From an uncultured Algibacter sp. (GTDB lineage: Bacteria > Bacteroidota > Bacteroidia > Flavobacteriales > Flavobacteriaceae), in NCBI RefSeq assembly GCF_947487605.1, contig NZ_CANKXK010000008.1:62001-126000 (forward strand): a stretch of DNA of 64,000 nt, given 5' to 3'. The notes beneath the pieces are model-generated. The model was not told the DNA's origin. It was given only the letters and a program-made list of their open reading frames with translations, and made no database searches. Below are positions 22,971 through 32,513 of this stretch, piece by piece. Both the position numbers and the translations under genes were made by a program. Positions within the stretch are counted from its first letter, which is position 1, and each line of letters begins with the position of its first letter.

Positions 22971-23237
22971 ATGGAAAAAACTACACAAAAACCTACCATT
23001 GCATCCAAAATGTACTGCAATTTTTTTGGTCATGATTATCACGTAACTAAAAAAGTAACACAGCATGTTAAAGAGTATCAATGTAGCCATTGTAAAAAGG
23101 AATTAACCACAAATAGCAACGGCAAACTAACAGAATTAACTGCAACTTTTAAGGAAATAAACGACATCTTAGAATTTATGTATCGTAAAAAACTTATGAG
23201 AATGCGAGAAAGAATGTACGGAACAAATGCTGCTTAA
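22971..23237 (+). CDS. Small zinc-ribbon-like protein (DUF1660-like), copy 1
   Basis: The 88-residue protein reads MYCNFFGHDYHVTKKVTQHV, then EYQCSHCKKELTTNSNGKLTEL. A first Cys and His (CNFFGHD) and a CxxC pair suggest one zinc site. The C-terminus is helical and basic (FMYRKKLMRMRERMYG). It is clearly paralogous to the next gene: GHDY/GHDF, HVKEYQC/HVKEFKC, KLTELTATFKEIN/HLTKLTPKYREIN. The function is unknown. Confidence 0.75.
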   Translation: MEKTTQKPTIASKMYCNFFGHDYHVTKKVTQHVKEYQCSHCKKELTTNSNGKLTELTATFKEINDILEFMYRKKLMRMRERMYGTNAA

Positions 23238-23305: not shown

Positions 23306-23530
23306 ATGAAGAGCATTTATTGTTCGCTTTTTGGTCATGATTTTAAAGTGACCAAACAAATTACATATCACGTAAAAGAATTTAAGTGTGTCCAGTGTCA
23401 AGAACAGTTCACTACAGATGAGTCTGGACATTTAACTAAGCTTACCCCTAAATATAGAGAGATTAATTTGGTGCTAGAAAAAATTCACAATAAAAAGTTG
23501 CGCCGTAAATCTTATCAAGCAGTTAGCTAG
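23306..23530 (+). CDS. Small zinc-ribbon-like protein (DUF1660-like), copy 2
   Basis: The 74-residue tandem paralogue has MKSIYCSLFGHDFKVTK, HVKEFKCVQCQEQFTTDESG and a basic tail (KKLRRKS). The Cys, GHD and CxxC residues are conserved with copy 1, which supports metal binding. It lacks the first 11 residues of copy 1. Its end overlaps the stop of convergent thiL by 8 bases. Such short CxxC proteins occur beside phage genes elsewhere, but nothing phage-like is seen here. Confidence 0.75.
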   Translation: MKSIYCSLFGHDFKVTKQITYHVKEFKCVQCQEQFTTDESGHLTKLTPKYREINLVLEKIHNKKLRRKSYQAVS

Positions 23531-24745: not shown

Positions 24746-25999
24746 ATGAATTTCTTTAAAAATAACATCAAATATATTACTATCCTGTTTTCTGGACTTT
24801 TTGTTTTATTCGGATTAATTGCATGCGATAATGAAGATAATAATAATTCAACTATAATAGAATCGGATGCATTGTTTCCATGCGAAAATGGATTTGCCGA
24901 TATTTATCCCTGTAACGGTTATGAATTAATGGCTCAAATACCATTAAGTACTTTCGCGGCTTCTGCTGGAAATGATTCTTGGGGTTGGACCGACCCAACA
25001 ACTGGTAAAGAATATGCCTTAATGGGATTAGATAACGGGACAGCTTTTGTTGATATTACAGACCCATTAGAAACTATTTACTTAGGAAAACTACCTACAG
25101 AAACAATAAGTAATAGTTGGAGAGATATAAAAGTTTTTAATAATCATGCATTTATAGTAGCAGATGTTGCTGGAAACCATGGCATGCAAGTATTTGATTT
25201 AACAAGATTGCGAAATGTAGCAAACCCACCTGAAACATTCACTACTGATGCTTTATATACAGGTGTTGATAGCTGCCATAACGTTGTAATTAATGAAAAT
25301 GAAAGTATCGCTTATTTAGTTGGTTGCTCGAACAATGGTGGAGGGCCAATTTTTATAGATATATCTTCCCCTACAAACCCAACATTTTTAGGAGAATATA
25401 CAGCCGAGGGATATTCGCATGATGCACAAGTTGTAACCTATAATGGTCCTGACGTAGAACACCAAGGCAAGCAAATTTATATAGGCAGCAACGGTTATAG
25501 TAATAACGTCGTTATTTTAGATGTTACAGATAAAAGCAATATAATTCCAATAAGCAGTCTTAGCTATCCACAAGAAGAATTTGCTCATCAGGGTTGGTTT
25601 ACTGAAGATCAACGTTATTTTATTCTCGGAGATGAGCTTGACGAAGGAGCATTTGGATTTAATACCAAAACAATTATTTTTGATTTTAATGATTTGGATA
25701 ACCCTGTTTTGTCCTCAACATTTTTCGGCCCAACCCTAGCAGTCGATCATAATGGCTATGTAAAAGACAATACTTATTATTTATCGAATTACAGAGCTGG
25801 TATGCGAGTTTTAGATATTTCGAATATTTCTGATTCTAGCAACCCTATGACAGAAATAGGCTTTTTCGACACATACCCAGAAAATAATAACGCAGGCACT
25901 GTTGGTGCGTGGAACGTTTACCCTTATTTTGAAAGTGGAAATATAATTATAAGCGATATTATTCGAGGTCTGTTTGTCGTTAGAAAAAGTAATTTATAA
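24746..25999 (+). CDS. Choice-of-anchor B family lipoprotein (LVIVD repeats)
   Basis: The 417-residue protein has a lipoprotein signal (LFVLFGLIACDNE). The mature part contains several repeats of the LVIVD/choice-of-anchor B type, each with a beta-strand followed by a D-I/V-T/S motif: TAFVDITDPLETIYLGKL, MQVFDLTRLRNV, PIFIDISSPTNPTFLGEY, VVILDVTDKSNI, MRVLDISNISD. It also carries the family segments GNDSWGWTDPTTGKEYALMG and EFAHQGWFTEDQRYFILGDELDE. It probably forms a beta-propeller at the cell surface. It is the first gene of a four-lipoprotein operon, with 18 bases to the next gene. Its function is unknown. Confidence 0.88.
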   Translation: MNFFKNNIKYITILFSGLFVLFGLIACDNEDNNNSTIIESDALFPCENGFADIYPCNGYELMAQIPLSTFAASAGNDSWGWTDPTTGKEYALMGLDNGTAFVDITDPLETIYLGKLPTETISNSWRDIKVFNNHAFIVADVAGNHGMQVFDLTRLRNVANPPETFTTDALYTGVDSCHNVVINENESIAYLVGCSNNGGGPIFIDISSPTNPTFLGEYTAEGYSHDAQVVTYNGPDVEHQGKQIYIGSNGYSNNVVILDVTDKSNIIPISSLSYPQEEFAHQGWFTEDQRYFILGDELDEGAFGFNTKTIIFDFNDLDNPVLSSTFFGPTLAVDHNGYVKDNTYYLSNYRAGMRVLDISNISDSSNPMTEIGFFDTYPENNNAGTVGAWNVYPYFESGNIIISDIIRGLFVVRKSNL

Positions 26000-26017
26000 T
26001 ATTCTGAAAGTTCCATA

Positions 26018-27355
26018 ATGAAAATAATAAAATACAATTATCGCTTTTGTATTCTTATAGTATTTATAGGCATTTTTAATTGTTCTTCAGATGAAAGTAC
26101 CGAAAAAACGACTCCTTTATTTGGTGTTAAAGTTCTGGGAGGCTCGCTAAACGATAGCGCCCAAGCTATTACAAGCACAATAGATGGAGGTTACGCTGTT
26201 TTAGGGTTTTCGCAAAGTGATGATGGCGATGTAACTTCTAAACAAAACAAAACATTTGACTATTGGTTGCTAAAATTCGATTCTAATAACGCACTAAGTT
26301 GGCAAAAAACTTATGGAGGGAGTGGCGACGACAGAGGTAATGATATTATTCAAACTAACGATAATGGTTATATCATTTTTGGCCAAAGTTCAAGTAGCGA
26401 TGGCAATATAACCAACAATGCTGGTTCTTTAGATTTTTGGCTATCTAAAATAGATAGTTCTGGTAATATAATTTGGAATAACTCCTTTGGTTTTTCTGGG
26501 GTAGATAATGGCATCTCACTAATTGAGACAAAAGACAATGGTTATCTATTAACAGGAGTTTTAGACGTTACTGCATCAGGAGGTGAAGGAAATAGTAAGT
26601 TTTCAACTTCAAAAAGGCATGCTGGAGGAGATTATTGGGCTATCAAATTAAATTCTAACGGAGACAAACAATGGAGTAAATTCTATGGTGGTACATTTAC
26701 CGATACACCAAATGATGTCATTCAAACTACAGATAATGGCTATTTAATTATTGGTTCATCCGACAGTAATGATGTTGACATTAGTGACAATAAAGGTTCC
26801 TATGATATGTGGATTATTAAAATTTCGGAAACTGGAAATCTTCTTTGGGAAAAATCTTTTGGCGGTTCAGAAATTGATGAAGCTTACAACATAACAAGCA
26901 CTAACGATGGAAATTATTTAATAGTTGGTAACACTAGAAGTAGCGACAACGACGTTTCTTTTAATAATGGTGCAGCCGATTTATGGATGATAAAAATTTC
27001 GGAAACTGGTAATATGCTATGGGAAAAAACTTTGGGCGGAAACAATTTTGACTCCGGAAGTGCTGTTTCAAAAACACAAGATGGCGGGTTTATTTTAAGC
27101 GGTAATTCAAGAAGTTTAAATGGAAATCTTATAGAAAACAAAAGTCAGAATGATGCTTGGCTTATCAAAATAGATGCAAATGCTAATATAGAATGGCAAA
27201 AAACAATTGGCGGAACTGAAATCGATTTTGCTAACGATATCACCCAATTGAATGATGGCACTTATGTTGCAGTTGGAGAAACTAGTAGTTCCAATGAAGA
27301 TATTACAGAAAACAAAGGGTTTGCAGACCTATTAATTATCACAATAAATGAATAA
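26018..27355 (+). CDS. Lipoprotein with seven propeller-like repeats
   Basis: The 445-residue protein has a lipoprotein signal (IFNCSSDES). The mature part consists of seven repeats of about 52-65 residues. Each runs roughly as K-(T/S)-(Y/F/L)-GG-(S/T)-x-x-D, I-x-x-T-x-D-G/N-GY, a G-x-(S/T)-x-S-x-(D/N)-x-D segment, D-x-W-(L/I)-x-K-(I/L), then G-x-x-x-W. Seven such four-strand units strongly suggest a closed seven-bladed beta-propeller. Repeat 3 has a short insertion (ASGGEGNSKFSTSKRHAGG). The 3' end overlaps the MbnP-like gene by 8 bases, so translation is coupled. A scaffold or partner role for the neighbouring enzyme pair is inferred from position. Confidence 0.82.
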   Translation: MKIIKYNYRFCILIVFIGIFNCSSDESTEKTTPLFGVKVLGGSLNDSAQAITSTIDGGYAVLGFSQSDDGDVTSKQNKTFDYWLLKFDSNNALSWQKTYGGSGDDRGNDIIQTNDNGYIIFGQSSSSDGNITNNAGSLDFWLSKIDSSGNIIWNNSFGFSGVDNGISLIETKDNGYLLTGVLDVTASGGEGNSKFSTSKRHAGGDYWAIKLNSNGDKQWSKFYGGTFTDTPNDVIQTTDNGYLIIGSSDSNDVDISDNKGSYDMWIIKISETGNLLWEKSFGGSEIDEAYNITSTNDGNYLIVGNTRSSDNDVSFNNGAADLWMIKISETGNMLWEKTLGGNNFDSGSAVSKTQDGGFILSGNSRSLNGNLIENKSQNDAWLIKIDANANIEWQKTIGGTEIDFANDITQLNDGTYVAVGETSSSNEDITENKGFADLLIITINE

Positions 27356-28118
27356 AGTAGCTTCAATATTTCTGTTTGTTTTTATTACGCTTGTTTCATG
27401 CCATAAAGACAATGATGACAACGTTTCAAACGTAAATATCTCACTCCATTTTACTCATAATTGGGATGGCATTCCTGTTTCTAATTCAGATTTTAACGCT
27501 CTTAAATTCACTAATGAAAATGGAGAAATGTTGAGCATAGAACGCTTACGTTATTTAATATCAGACATAACATTAACTAACTCCACAGGAGAGTCTTTAA
27601 CAATTGACGCATACAATTTGGTTGATGTAACAAATAACGGAAATTTAGAATTTTCACCAGAAGTATTAATCCCAACTGATGCATACACCAACATTTCATT
27701 TACTTTCGGCTTTACTAACGAAAAAAATATTGATGCTGCATACCAAGATTTAAATTCTGCTTCTTGGTTTGTTCCAGCCATGTTAGGTGGCGGTTATCAT
27801 TACATACAGTTTGATGGAAAATTTTTAAATAGTTCTAACATCGAACAAGGGTTTAATTATCATGCCATAAGAGCGGTGGATAATCCTGGAGCAAACCCAA
27901 CCTTTCCACAAGACACTTTTATAACCGTTAATTTAGGCGCAGTCACTATTACAAGTAATATCGTTTTTAATATTGAAATGAATATTGCCGAATGGTTTAA
28001 AACTCCTAACATATGGGATTTAAATGTATTCAACCAATCGCTTATGCCAAATTCTACCGCGCAAATTATGATGTTTGAAAACGGGCAAAATGTATTTAGT
28101 TTAAAATCAACAAAATAA
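27348..28118 (+). CDS. MbnP family lipoprotein (putative copper-binding)
   Basis: The 256-residue protein has a lipoprotein signal (FITLVSCHKD) and the layout of the MbnP family: an N-terminal strand with HFTHNWDG (His34, His37, Trp39), then LSIERLRYLISDITL, a middle with SFTFGF, SASWFVPAMLGGGYHYIQFDGKF (Trp140, His151), and a final beta region. In methanotrophs MbnP binds copper after a partner diheme enzyme (MbnH) converts a tryptophan to kynurenine. The MbnH-like gene follows after 7 bases. Which Trp or His matters here cannot be told from sequence alone. Confidence 0.8.
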   Translation: MNKVASIFLFVFITLVSCHKDNDDNVSNVNISLHFTHNWDGIPVSNSDFNALKFTNENGEMLSIERLRYLISDITLTNSTGESLTIDAYNLVDVTNNGNLEFSPEVLIPTDAYTNISFTFGFTNEKNIDAAYQDLNSASWFVPAMLGGGYHYIQFDGKFLNSSNIEQGFNYHAIRAVDNPGANPTFPQDTFITVNLGAVTITSNIVFNIEMNIAEWFKTPNIWDLNVFNQSLMPNSTAQIMMFENGQNVFSLKSTK

Positions 28119-28125
28119 TTAAAAT

Positions 28126-29193
28126 TTGAAACGTTGGACATTACATATCTTAATTATTGTTGCTTTTATTATAACATCTTGTTCTAATAAAAGTGTAGAA
28201 GTCTATACCTCTACTCCAAGCCCACTAAATATACCGCAGCTTTTTCAAGACAAAATTCTAAACCCCGTAATTCCAATTGATAATCCACAAACAGTTGAAG
28301 GAATCGCTTTGGGTAAAAAATTATTTTTTGACCCCATTTTATCTGCAGATAATTCTCAAGCCTGCGCCGATTGTCATGCTCCAGAAAATGCCTTCTCGGA
28401 TTCTGATAGGTTTAGTGATGGTATTGATGGAAGTTTAGGAAACCGAAACTCCATGCCACTTTTTAACTTGGCTTGGAATTACGATGAAAAATTCTTTTGG
28501 GATGGTAACACATTTAGTCTAGAACATCAGGCTTTTGTTCCTGTTACAGACCCTACTGAAATGGCAAGCAATTGGACTCAGGTTGAAGAAAAATTACAAC
28601 AGCATTCAGAATATCCAAATCTTTTTAATCAAGCTTTTGGCACTTCAGCTATAGACTCTACTTTGGTAACAAAAGCCATCGCTCAGTTTGAACGTACGTT
28701 AATTTCATCAAATTCAAAATTCGATAAATTTTTACTAGGGGTAGCCACTTTAACCCCAGAAGAACAAAATGGCTTTAATATTTTTATGGATGAAAACAAA
28801 GGTGACTGCTTTCATTGCCACGGTAGTGAAAATAATCCACTATGGACAGATAATATTTTTCATAACAATGGCTTAGATAACACATTTACCGATTTAGGTT
28901 TAGGAGCAGTTACTGGAGACCCAGCAGATAATGGAAAATTCAAATCCCCTTCCCTCAGGAATTTAGCATTCACAGCACCTTATATGCACGATGGTAGATT
29001 TGCTACTTTAGAAGAAGTTATCAATCATTACAGTGAAGGGCTAAAACAATCATCAACCATCGACCCATTAATGAAAAAAGTAGCCCAAGGTGGTGTGCAA
29101 CTTTCAGTACAAGACAAAGCCGATTTAAAAACCTTTCTTTTATCCCTTTCAGATTATGAATTTATAAATAATTCTGCCTTTAACAATCAATAA
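28126..29193 (+). CDS. Diheme cytochrome c peroxidase family lipoprotein (MbnH/MauG-like)
   Basis: The 355-residue protein has a TTG start, supported by the signal that follows at once (MKRWTLHILIIVAFIITSC) and the 7-base gap to the previous gene. Two CxxCH haem sites are present: Cys80-Cys83-His84 (ACADCH) and Cys228-Cys231-His232 (CFHCH). The family segments VEGIALGKKLFFDPILSAD, GNRNSMPLFNLAW, KAIAQFERTLIS and YMHDGRFATLEEVINHYSEG are clear. Members are peroxidases or, as MauG and MbnH, modify tryptophan in a partner protein. The MbnP-like gene next to it favours the MbnH role; peroxidase activity remains possible. Confidence 0.88.
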   Translation: MKRWTLHILIIVAFIITSCSNKSVEVYTSTPSPLNIPQLFQDKILNPVIPIDNPQTVEGIALGKKLFFDPILSADNSQACADCHAPENAFSDSDRFSDGIDGSLGNRNSMPLFNLAWNYDEKFFWDGNTFSLEHQAFVPVTDPTEMASNWTQVEEKLQQHSEYPNLFNQAFGTSAIDSTLVTKAIAQFERTLISSNSKFDKFLLGVATLTPEEQNGFNIFMDENKGDCFHCHGSENNPLWTDNIFHNNGLDNTFTDLGLGAVTGDPADNGKFKSPSLRNLAFTAPYMHDGRFATLEEVINHYSEGLKQSSTIDPLMKKVAQGGVQLSVQDKADLKTFLLSLSDYEFINNSAFNNQ

Positions 29194-29333: not shown

Positions 29334-29663
29334 ATGATAAAAGTCTCTGAAACAGCTAAAAAGAAGGTCGTAGAACTTATGACTGACGATGGCTATAATG
29401 CTACTACTGACTATGTACGCGTGGGTGTAAAAAGTGGAGGATGTTCTGGATTATCTTACGATTTAAAGTTTGATAAAGAACAACAAGATGGCGATAAAGT
29501 ATTTGAAGATAATGGTGTTAAAATTATAGTTGACAAAAAGAGCTTTTTATACCTTATAGGAACTACTCTAGAATATTCGGGAGGTTTAAACGGAACAGGT
29601 TTCGTGTTTAATAATCCTAACGCTAACCGTACTTGTGGTTGTGGCGAATCATTTTCATTATAA
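29334..29663 (+). CDS. sufA: HesB/IscA family iron-sulfur assembly protein
   Basis: The 109-residue protein is an A-type carrier. Its three cluster-binding cysteines are visible: Cys37 in SGGCSGLSY and Cys101/Cys103 in RTCGCGESF. It receives clusters from the SufBCD scaffold and passes them to targets. It heads the suf gene group, 17 bases before sufB. Carriers of this type in a suf operon are usually called SufA; the separation from IscA rests on the context. Confidence 0.93.
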   Translation: MIKVSETAKKKVVELMTDDGYNATTDYVRVGVKSGGCSGLSYDLKFDKEQQDGDKVFEDNGVKIIVDKKSFLYLIGTTLEYSGGLNGTGFVFNNPNANRTCGCGESFSL

Positions 29664-29680
29664 CAAAATAAGAAAGCATT

Positions 29681-31129
29681 ATGTCGAAGTACACCGAGGA
29701 TGATTTACGCGAAGAGCTAAAAACCAAAGAATATGAGTATGGGTTTTATACTGATATTGAGTCTGATACATTTCCAAACGGTTTAAATGAAGATATTGTT
29801 CGTGCCATTTCTAAAAAGAAAGAAGAGCCTGAATGGATGACTGAATGGCGCCTAGAAGCATTTCGTGTTTGGAAAAACATGGACGAACCAGATTGGGCAA
29901 ACGTAAATTACGTAAAACCAGATTTTCAAGGCATCTCTTACTACTCTGCACCAAATAGCAAACCTAAATACGACAGTATTGATGAGGTTGATCCAGAATT
30001 ATTAGCAACTTTTGAAAAGCTAGGTATTTCTCTTGACGAACAAAAGAAACTTGCTGGTGTAGCTATGGATGTGGTTGTAGATTCTGTTTCGGTAGCAACA
30101 ACCTTTAAGAAAACTTTAGGTGAAAAGGGTATTATTTTTATGAGTATCTCCGAAGCTATTAAAGAGCATCCAGAACTTGTAAAAAAACATCTAGGAACCG
30201 TAGTTCCAACAAAGGATAATTTTTATGCCGCTTTAAATTCAGCTGTGTTTAGTGATGGCTCTTTCTGTTATATTCCAAAAGGCGTAAAATGTCCAATGGA
30301 ATTATCAACATACTTTAGAATTAATCAAGCAGGAACTGGTCAATTTGAAAGAACTTTGGTAATTGCTGATGAAGGTAGTTATGTAAGTTATTTAGAAGGC
30401 TGTACAGCTCCTAGTCGTGATGAAAACCAACTACATGCAGCCGTTGTAGAGCTTATTGCTTTAGATGATGCTGAAATAAAATACTCCACAGTACAAAACT
30501 GGTATCCAGGAAATGCTGAAGGTAAAGGTGGTGTTTACAACTTTGTAACCAAGCGCGGTTTGTGTGAAAAAAATGCAAAAATCTCTTGGACACAAGTAGA
30601 AACTGGTTCTGCTGTTACTTGGAAATATCCAAGCTGCGTATTAAAAGGTGATAATTCAGTTGGCGAATTTTACTCTATTGCTGTTACCAATAATTATCAG
30701 CAAGCAGATACGGGAACAAAAATGATTCACTTAGGAAAGAATACGAAGTCCACTATTATTTCAAAAGGTATTTCTGCTGGAAAATCTCAAAATAGTTACC
30801 GTGGTTTAGTACAAATTAGTTCTAGAGCAGAAAATGCACGTAACTTTTCGCAATGTGATAGTTTATTAATGGGTAATGACTGTGGTGCACACACCTTCCC
30901 ATATATAGAAGCTAAAAATAAAACAGCAAAAATAGAGCACGAAGCAACAACTAGTAAAATTGGTGAAGACCAAATTTTCTATTGCAATCAACGTGGTATA
31001 GATACAGAAAAAGCCATTGCCCTTATTGTAAATGGCTTTAGCAAAGAAGTATTAAATAAATTACCAATGGAGTTTGCTGTTGAAGCTCAAAAACTATTAG
31101 AAATAAGTTTAGAAGGATCTGTAGGATAG
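29681..31129 (+). CDS. sufB: Fe-S cluster assembly scaffold protein SufB
   Basis: The 482-residue protein has the normal SufB length and motifs: [24 protein letters not shown] near the N-terminus, the beta-helix core, and a C-terminal segment with [34 protein letters not shown] and [19 protein letters not shown]. It forms the SufBC2D complex where [4Fe-4S] clusters are built. It follows sufA by 17 bases and is followed by a 113-bp repeat-bearing spacer. Confidence 0.96.
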
Positions 31130-31149
31130 ATAAATTTTAACGAAATGTC

Positions 31150-31217
31150 ACACTAAGCATTACCGAAATGAAAATATATTTTCATTGAAAGTACCGAAGC
31201 AGAGCTTCACTAAGTGT
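31150..31217. repeat. Decayed inverted repeat between sufB and the suf lipoprotein
   Basis: ACACT at 31150 pairs with AGTGT at 31213. A perfect 18-nt palindrome (ATGAAAATATATTTTCAT, 31168-31185) sits inside. The fragments GTCACACTAAGC and ACCGAAGCAGAGCTTC look like worn copies of the TTGAGCTTGTCGAAA repeat at 9418. Confidence 0.4.
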
Positions 31218-31242
31218 CTCATCAATTAAAACTTTAATTTAA

Positions 31243-31659
31243 ATGAAAAAAATACTTTTATTCTCTTTAGCGCTAACAGTATTTGTTAGTTGTAAAAAAG
31301 AAACCAAATCTGAAAAAACAGAAGAAACAATTTCTGCTGATAGTACAGAAAAAACAGCAAAGCAAAGCGATGGGTTAACTTTATTAAAAGGTGATTTTGT
31401 TTATTATGATGGTGCTGCTGTATTACAAACACATGCCGATATTTATGGTGTTTTTGTAACCGATAAAATGTTGGAATTAAACACGCAAGCTGAATCTTTT
31501 AAAAAAGTACCAACCGATATGGTACAAGTTGAAATAAGAGGAAAGATTACCAATAAAAAAGACGAAAAAATTCTTTGGGAACGCAAAGTAGAAATTGTAG
31601 AAATTTTAAAAGTTTCTGCTCCAAAAGAAGATAACGACGTTGTAAAACTAGGAAATTAA
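31243..31659 (+). CDS. Small lipoprotein within the suf operon
   Basis: The 138-residue protein has a lipoprotein signal (LALTVFVSCKKE) and a low-complexity Glu/Lys/Thr linker (about 20-45). A compact beta domain follows: LLKGDFVYYDGAAVLQTHAD, IYGVFVTDKMLELNTQAESF, then KVPTDMVQVEIRGKIT and ILWERKVEIVEIL. The domain looks OB-like, similar in layout to the NlpE C-terminal domain, but I cannot confirm that. It lies between sufB and sufC on the same strand, so it is probably transcribed with them; a link to metal or oxidative stress sensing is speculation from position. Confidence 0.75.
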   Translation: MKKILLFSLALTVFVSCKKETKSEKTEETISADSTEKTAKQSDGLTLLKGDFVYYDGAAVLQTHADIYGVFVTDKMLELNTQAESFKKVPTDMVQVEIRGKITNKKDEKILWERKVEIVEILKVSAPKEDNDVVKLGN

Positions 31660-31675
31660 TCAAAATATAAGAATC

Positions 31676-31748
31676 AAATTCCAAATTCCAAACCTAAAAG
31701 AACAGATTAAACAAACCATTATAATTTGGTGCTTTAAATTTGGGATTT
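31676..31748. repeat. AAATTCCAAA-type spacer repeat before sufC
   Basis: AAATTCCAAATTCCAAA at 31676-31692 faces a near-complement TTTGGGATTT at 31739-31748. It fills the 101-bp gap between the lipoprotein gene and sufC and shows no coding potential. Confidence 0.35.
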
Positions 31749-31760
31749 TAAATATTTAAT

Positions 31761-32513
31761 ATGTTAAAAATAAACAACTTACACGCAAGTGTTGAAGATA
31801 AAAGTATCTTAAAAGGTATTAACCTTGAAGTGAAACCAGGTGAAGTACATGCAATCATGGGACCCAATGGGTCTGGAAAAAGCACTCTAGCATCTGTTAT
31901 TGCTGGGAAAGAAGAATACGAAGTAACCAAAGGTAATATTGAATTTGATGGCGAAGATATTGACGAACTAGCTGCCGAAGAACGCGCTCATAAAGGTGTG
32001 TTTTTATCATTCCAATATCCTGTTGAAATTCCAGGAGTGTCGGTAACTAATTTTATTAAAACGGCTATTAACGAATCTCGTAAAGCCAAAGGCTTAGATG
32101 ATATGCCAGCTAAGGAAATGTTGAAATTAATTCGTGATAAAGCCGATTTATTAGAAATAGATCGAAAATTCTTATCGCGTTCTCTTAACGAAGGGTTTTC
32201 TGGTGGCGAGAAAAAGAGAAACGAGATTTTCCAAATGGCTATGTTAGAACCTAAATTAGCAATTCTTGATGAAACCGACTCAGGTTTAGATATCGATGCC
32301 TTAAGAATTGTTGCAAATGGTGTAAATAAACTAAAAAACAAGGACAACGCAGTAGTTGTTATAACGCATTATCAACGATTGTTAGACCATATCGTCCCAG
32401 ATTTTGTTCATGTATTACACAATGGTAAAATTGTAAAATCGGGAACAAAAGAATTAGCGCACGAACTCGAGAAAAAAGGATACGACTGGATTAAAGAAGA
32501 AGTTGGCGCTTAA
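31761..32513 (+). CDS. sufC: Fe-S cluster assembly ATPase SufC
   Basis: The 250-residue ABC-type ATPase powers the SufBCD scaffold. It shows Walker A (GPNGSGKSTLA), the ABC signature in its SufC form (FSGGEKKRNEI), Walker B (LAILDETDSGLD) and the H-loop (VVVITHYQRLL). It is cytoplasmic and not a transporter. It lies between sufB and sufD with repeat-filled spacers of 101 bp (before) and 143 bp (after). Confidence 0.97.
   Translation: MLKINNLHASVEDKSILKGINLEVKPGEVHAIMGPNGSGKSTLASVIAGKEEYEVTKGNIEFDGEDIDELAAEERAHKGVFLSFQYPVEIPGVSVTNFIKTAINESRKAKGLDDMPAKEMLKLIRDKADLLEIDRKFLSRSLNEGFSGGEKKRNEIFQMAMLEPKLAILDETDSGLDIDALRIVANGVNKLKNKDNAVVVITHYQRLLDHIVPDFVHVLHNGKIVKSGTKELAHELEKKGYDWIKEEVGA

Follow-up and report, generated by a model that had tools for sequence, protein, structure and literature searches.

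The window analysed here is a stretch of 64,000 nucleotides from an uncultured Algibacter sp. (Flavobacteriaceae; contig NZ_CANKXK010000008.1), in which four same-strand (+) open reading frames (ORFs) lie tightly packed at positions 24746–29193, separated in order by a gap of 18 bp, an overlap of 8 bp and a gap of 7 bp. This locus comprises an MbnP-fold/MbnH-type pair that belongs to a conserved set of four genes for predicted lipoproteins; as far as alignments tell, the Trp expected from known MbnP is not conserved at the corresponding site in its close relatives, whichever alignment is used, and the residues of the neighbouring dihaem enzyme are intact. The first-pass annotation had described four tightly spaced genes for an LVIVD-repeat protein, a seven-repeat protein, an MbnP-like protein and a two-CxxCH diheme enzyme, and had read them as a surface version of a system in which MbnH oxidises a Trp of MbnP to kynurenine. 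The ORFs and the family matches bear out that layout, and the observation is confirmed, while the interpretation is half right. The reading that we tentatively favour, at a little short of an even chance, is that of an MbnP-type metal protein with a rebuilt site, held in a surface assembly with a MauG-like oxidase as its partner.

The MbnP-fold protein and its tryptophan site

Of 149 family genomes searched for the MbnP protein, 68 matched, and they fell into two well separated score groups, the close one being called clade A hereafter and the remainder canonical. Clade A comprises 45 whole-genome loci, 43 from the family search and two from a search of 395 sampled genomes across the phylum, in which clade A-type scores were confined to the same family (5 genomes including that of the window). 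To these were added named loci, taken as the best 80 of 472 confirmed matches, which partly repeat the whole-genome loci. The site counts bear on 125 clade A proteins (118 distinct), including 41 F-type proteins, i.e., with Phe at residue 140 (40 distinct). L100 (cut contig) was left out of sets A1 and A2 and of the site counts, L092 (short ORF) out of A2 only, and L053 out of A3, of the direct profile alignment of the MbnP site and of the tree with site columns removed; L067, in which BLAST found no MbnP, and the weakest matches (G059, G089, G117 and the G124 fragment) were set aside.

The third gene product matches PF20243 (MbnP) with 91.2 bits, against a gathering cut-off of 27, and its single-protein AlphaFold2 (AF2) model, computed from 43 clade sequences, is confident (mean predicted local distance difference test, pLDDT: 93.4). 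When this model was compared to the PDB with Foldseek, the six chains of 7L6G, the MbnP of M. trichosporium (PDB entry), were the only matches with an E-value up to 0.001, and VIA-align gave a Z of 16.3 over 215 residues (root-mean-square deviation 3.5), the next row being at 5.0. When the clade A alignment served as the profile for a PDB search, no MbnP was retrieved; only the canonical alignment and the fold search reached 7L6G. The MbnP-like assignment is supported for this protein. The genome of the window is 99.8% complete and yielded one MbnP and one PF03150 protein.

In a 2021 PNAS paper on MbnP, the first Trp of an M-x-W-x-W motif is reportedly converted into kynurenine, with His and Met as ligands. 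All 25 canonical MbnP of the family sample show this motif, followed by GY (GF in two) and by a later His, and the site of 7L6G reads M-A-W-N-W and HVGS. Outside the family sample, some canonical MbnP are devoid of the Met: L194 and L204 have L-x-W-x-W, and L243, which holds two MbnP–enzyme pairs back to back, has one MbnP with L-H-W-G-W, without a Met two positions before the Trp. Distant MbnP relatives also stand beside a dihaem enzyme in L264, L266 and L270, the site of the first two being Y-W-x-x-W.

The clade A consensus is [WF]-x-[VW]-P-x-x-[LM]-GGGYH. At residue 140, 84 of the 125 proteins have Trp and 41 have Phe; at residue 142, 117 have Val and eight have Trp. Residue 138 is never Met, and neither of the two alignments discussed below shows the canonical Met. 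No Met occurs between DLN and Pro in the 123 clade A proteins from which this stretch could be cut out, nor any Trp between DLN and GGGYH in the 41 F-type proteins. The conserved Trp at the MbnP site, on which the kynurenine proposal leaned, is therefore largely gone. Of the two marks of a kynurenine–copper MbnP, M-x-W-x-W is absent from clade A, whereas the conserved His is present (His172), its role as the copper ligand being presumed from MbnP. Judging from these alignments, kynurenine chemistry is not to be assumed here, and 41 of the 125 relatives examined could not undergo it at this site.

How residues 140 and 142 correspond to the canonical motif depends on the route of the alignment. 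Four more distant genomes of the phylum (L237–L240) encode related MbnP–enzyme pairs, hereafter X-type, whose MbnP has the site M-x-W-P-x-x-M-GGGYH; aligned through these proteins, residue 140 falls on the Met and residue 142 on the kynurenine Trp. When the eight W-x-W-P members are instead profile-aligned directly to canonical MbnP, W140 falls on the leading Trp of WxW, and so it did in the first MAFFT alignment. X-type proteins combine the canonical M-x-W with the His151 of clade A and might be intermediates; in the MbnP tree, three of the four group with clade A even when site columns are removed (support 95, in a tree of the window protein and alternate clade A rows).

It may be, then, that the enzyme converts W140 to kynurenine and creates a copper site of the kind known from MbnP, CorA and MopE. 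W140 is the single Trp kept in the site stretch of the window protein and is shared with two thirds of clade A, two alignments place it on the modified Trp, the enzyme has intact haem residues and the Tyr that it shares with 6E1C, and in four genomes this slot is taken by a canonical pair. We nevertheless consider this unlikely: the F-x-V proteins, without any Trp in the stretch, still have a conserved enzyme, the canonical Met is lost in both alignments, and the X-type route puts W140 on that Met and V142 on the kynurenine Trp. Moreover, the best enzyme tree implies no fewer than eight changes at residue 140 (and no fewer than five at residue 142), although well-supported branches yield only four independent pairs for residue 140.

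The dihaem enzyme and the exchange of the pair

The fourth gene product belongs to PF03150 (195 bits against a cut-off of 25.6) and has the two CxxCH motifs described at first sight. It scores below the cut-offs of both TIGR04039 (MbnH; 256.9 vs. 362.85 bits) and TIGR03791 (MauG; 189 vs. 444). In the PDB it is matched best by the dihaem enzyme 6E1C, which we take to be MbnH. MauG carries a Tyr where the distal ligand is otherwise Met, and at the putative distal ligand position of the second haem Tyr is invariant in 42 of 42 enzymes; by its Tyr302, the enzyme of the window is of MauG/MbnH type rather than of peroxidase type. Both CxxCH motifs, W125, Q135, P139, E145 and Y302 are present in 124 of the 125 clade A enzymes, at spacings that presumably match Trp93, Gln103, Pro107, Glu113 and Tyr294 of MauG. 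In the remaining one (L130), the contig ends before the second haem and the other residues are kept. Likewise, 40 of the 41 enzymes paired with an F-type MbnP hold all haem, peroxide and axial-Tyr residues, and the 41st is contig-cut. The AF2 model of the enzyme is weak (mean pLDDT: 73.0) and was not used.

An enzyme conserved where the site Trp is gone would also fit the oxidation of another MbnP residue, giving a new protein-derived site. W223, Y150 and M233 are each invariant in all 125 proteins and may be candidates, W223 being replaced in the four X-type proteins by Tyr, itself oxidisable. However, such invariance, read from sequence alone, may reflect folding only, and X-type proteins also keep the canonical M-x-W, so that we deem this unlikely. 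Covariation between MbnP residue 140 and enzyme residues peaked at residue 124, which adjoins W125, but was rejected: only four supported independent pairs are available, and across these four the trait at residue 124 is mostly unchanged.

The dihaem protein could instead be a peroxidase or an electron carrier without an MbnP substrate, beside a structural or metal-binding MbnP. PF03150 is a peroxidase family, and related enzymes occur without MbnP detected in short flanks, several in tandem (two adjoining MauG-type enzymes in each of L258, L259, L262 and L263). Yet the enzyme has Tyr where two dihaem peroxidases have Met, MbnP and MbnH adjoin in all 128 loci with the full gene order, and the pair appears to have been exchanged as a unit, which makes this explanation quite unlikely.

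The order AnchB–SBBP–MbnP–MbnH (named after the families of the four products) is found in 44 of the 45 clade A whole-genome loci, the exception (L100) being a 5.4-kb contig end, and in 80 of the 80 named Flavobacteriaceae-type loci, themselves the best 80 of 472. Four loci with canonical pairs share it (L053, L056, L062 and L222; C-type, as opposed to B-type canonical pairs, which lack SBBP). The gene order, whose absence elsewhere would have spoken against the first-pass annotation, is therefore widely conserved. In these 128 loci, gaps do not exceed 60 bp at the three junctions in 126, 128 and 124 cases, respectively, the next gene is sufA in 125 (small zinc-ribbon-like genes aside; none was recognised in the other three) and a ThiL-like gene lies upstream in 115. 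Of the 26 canonical pairs available from the family, 22 lie outside the slot, and the stretches around them contain no suf gene; their lack of SBBP follows from the definition of B-type, whereas that of suf does not. Conversely, no pair was detected alongside AnchB–SBBP in 23 other genomes, 21 of which have suf genes within the stretch. A divergent MbnP hidden in the 24 SBBP loci scored as devoid of the pair was considered and rejected: 23 gave no BLAST match, their next genes being others, mostly suf, and the 24th (L222) proved to be a C-type pair.

In a tree of 98 enzymes, those of clade A form one group (45 rows, support 100), while the four C-type enzymes and the canonical L055 form one subgroup inside the canonical enzymes (support 98). 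On a tree of 72 SBBP proteins, presence of the pair changes once, and C-type loci fall among clade A loci, even though support for some of those forks is weak. This is most simply read as a single gain (or loss) of the pair, followed by a canonical pair replacing the clade A pair in the slot, the direction not being proven. Since the presence of the pair changes once, the many genomes do not constitute independent evidence for function; since a phylogenetically distinct pair sits in the same slot, the pair appears, on these trees, to have been exchanged in place, and this is a stronger argument for function than genome counts. It also lends weight to the earlier suggestion that the two repeat proteins are further partners, as it suggests that they are real ones.

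The conserved order might nonetheless reflect mere neighbourhood inertia in Flavobacteriaceae, without any functional link between the four genes, given that many loci retain thiL–AnchB–SBBP–suf whether or not they have the pair and that the single change in pair presence deprives genome counts of independence. The phylogenetically distinct pair found in precisely that position in four genomes and the short gaps at the junctions speak against it, and we regard it as very unlikely.

Repeat proteins, location of the products and neighbouring genes

The first gene product clearly belongs to the choice-of-anchor B family (TIGR04312; 534 bits, cut-off 100) and has LVIVD-type repeats, even though its LVIVD Pfam match alone is sub-threshold (18.2 vs. 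20.2 bits). The second does show the seven repeats that had been counted, at successive spacings of 57–66 residues, and matches the SBBP propeller lipoprotein model weakly (46 bits against a cut-off of 400). Relatives of AnchB swap anchors between a lipobox and a type IX secretion system (T9SS) tail, the latter being found in four of six hand-picked relatives; to our knowledge, the description of TIGR04312 makes no link to the MbnP–MbnH pair. A thrombospondin-type repeat model matches ahead of the AnchB domain, below model cut-offs, in two of these six (L074 and L084), L074 being the nearest relative of the window and belonging to the same genus. Tandem AnchB genes precede SBBP in L035, L040, L041, L044, L046, L077, L093, L095, L097 and L099, and all four tandem copies tested (L041, L044, L046 and L093) have a T9SS tail.

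By inspection, all four products of the window have a signal peptide and a lipobox Cys (LIAC, IFNC, LVSC and ITSC), in agreement with the all-lipoprotein operon proposed initially, which does not extend to every relative, in view of the T9SS tails. Using a simple script, the mean number of acidic residues at positions +2 to +7 after the lipid Cys was 2.7 in MbnP (lipobox found in 123 of 128), 1.68 in SBBP (117 of 128), 1.65 in MbnH (101 of 128) and 1.24 in AnchB (92 of 148), these scores having no periplasmic control set and the script misplacing some Cys, above all in MbnH and AnchB. The stretch of MbnP is in line with the lipoprotein export signals SDDFE/QKDDE described in PMC5080379. Together, the acidic N-termini of MbnP and the T9SS tails of AnchB make surface display likely for these two proteins.

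Downstream of the enzyme gene, the suf genes of Table 1 follow. The small lipoprotein between sufB and sufC occurs in 112 of the 117 clade A loci and three of the four C-type loci, against four of 20 pair-less loci by E-value (one of these above 60 bits); a link to the pair was dropped, as the tree gives only one independent comparison. In four pair-less loci (L213, L226, L228 and L229), the gene downstream of sufB encodes about 290 residues; its product resembles a lipoprotein and has the look of a metallo-beta-lactamase (SHTHFDH). Upstream of thiL, 22971–23237 and 23306–23530 encode two small, mutually similar proteins with CxxC pairs, for which no Pfam family exceeded its cut-off and whose BLAST relatives are also found in several loci between MbnH and sufA. 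Promoter and terminator scans gave no signal clearly exceeding chance.

Table 1. Positions in the window of the four genes, of selected residues and of the suf genes that follow.
Feature	Position	Strand	Basis
AnchB, choice-of-anchor B (TIGR04312) lipoprotein, LVIVD-type repeats	24746..25999	+	TIGR04312 534 bits; lipobox LIAC
SBBP-like lipoprotein, seven repeats of about 58 residues	26018..27355	+	repeat analysis; lipobox IFNC
MbnP-fold lipoprotein, WxW-less clade A	27348..28118	+	PF20243, AF2, 7L6G; lipobox LVSC
W140, F141, V142 codons; canonical M-x-W or W-x-W place, alignment ambiguous	27765..27773	+	alignments
His151 (GGGYH), invariant 125/125; K, R or Q in 25/25 canonical	27798..27800	+	site counts
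His172, invariant 125/125 clade A and 25/25 canonical	27861..27863	+	site counts
Trp223, invariant 125/125; Tyr in four X-type proteins	28014..28016	+	site counts
Met233, invariant 125/125 clade A, 4/4 X-type; Met in 8/25 canonical	28044..28046	+	site counts
MauG/MbnH-type dihaem enzyme, lipoprotein, TTG start	28126..29193	+	PF03150, TIGR04039, 6E1C; lipobox ITSC
First haem motif CADCH (C80–H84)	28363..28377	+	sequence
Second haem motif CFHCH (C228–H232)	28807..28821	+	sequence
Tyr302, on Tyr of 6E1C (EVIDIYSEG) and Met of two dihaem peroxidases	29029..29031	+	profile alignment
suf operon start (140 bp past the enzyme gene)	29334..32513	+	names from sequence, not family search
SufA	29334..29663	+	name from sequence
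SufB	29681..31129	+	name from sequence
Small lipoprotein between sufB and sufC	31243..31659	+	by sequence
SufC	31761..32513	+	name from sequence

A putative rebuilt site and the known MbnP systems

MbnP–MbnH pairs are taken as likely kynurenine copper systems, and we know of no role established for them outside methanotrophs. MauG resembles the present enzyme by its two haems, its Tyr at the Met position and, as presumed here, its protein substrate, and differs by making tryptophan tryptophylquinone in methylamine dehydrogenase as well as by the low TIGR03791 score reported above. The MbnP–MbnH pair of Methylosinus trichosporium (7L6G, 6E1C; TIGR04052/TIGR04039) shares with clade A the fold, an adjoining dihaem enzyme, the axial Tyr and the equivalent of His172. 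In contrast, clade A lacks M-x-W-x-W, has an extra Pro-x-x-Leu-Gly-Gly loop ending in His151, an enzyme below the TIGR04039 cut-off and propeller-type lipoprotein partners, while no methanobactin genes were noticed beside the clade A locus, in which no search was aimed at them. Conservation of the MbnP and MbnH pair far beyond methanobactin producers is mentioned in PMC3621798, according to which, as of 2013, no data tied close MbnP/MbnH homologues to copper. A second system is CorA–CorB/MopE–SACCP, in which a surface copper protein is co-transcribed with a dihaem MauG-like cytochrome (PMC3912023). Its two-His copper site, with kynurenine as a second-sphere contact at 2.9 Å, provides a precedent for a metal site in which kynurenine is only second-sphere; the likeness meant here is one of description, and clade A differs by having no conserved Trp. 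Neither this operon nor the WxW-less clade appeared among the papers listed, mostly non-subscription ones, on MbnP/MbnH, MopE/CorA/MauG, choice-of-anchor B/LVIVD and the metallo-mystery pair.

According to the reading favoured at the outset, the locus would encode an outer-membrane or cell-surface lipoprotein assembly, in which the MbnP-fold protein would be displayed beside the two propeller-type repeat proteins. Its dihaem partner would use peroxide to oxidise a residue in the MbnP-fold protein, or would exchange electrons with it, if it acts on this MbnP at all. His151, Trp223 and Met233 are invariant throughout clade A yet not among the canonical proteins, and His172 is shared by both; from this we infer that the canonical M-x-W-x-W kynurenine/copper site was rebuilt around GGGYH. 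The protein would probably still bind a metal, most likely copper, through His172 and the clade-specific His151, perhaps with Met233, and such binding would need no kynurenine. As for the enzyme, it may have been retained in a large group of marine flavobacteria after its partner lost the known target Trp and may now install another oxidative modification, or none, in a rebuilt His/His/Met metal site of the surface assembly, canonical and rebuilt pairs having been swapped in the slot; this more specific scenario is possible but doubtful.

Several points weigh against the favoured reading. The grouping of His151, His172 and Met233 is drawn from residue conservation, and metal binding from analogy with MbnP. 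The window protein keeps W140, so that a modification there could still take place, and the direct profile alignment of the W-x-W-P members puts that residue on the first Trp. Residue 145 is Met in 100 of the 125 proteins and, although its placement is unsure, could replace the lost canonical Met, and the presence of canonical-site C-type pairs in the same slot could indicate that the clade A site does the job of a kynurenine site. Finally, the neighbourhood shared with suf may be inherited inertia, and choosing the best 80 of 472 matches favours close relatives.

With a clade A pair devoid of a conserved Trp, annotation by homology alone would mislead. The natural series M-x-W-x-W, M-x-W-P, W-x-V-P and F-x-V-P could serve to probe what MbnH-type enzymes need in their substrate, and the conserved gene set names two propeller-type proteins as candidate partners of the pair.

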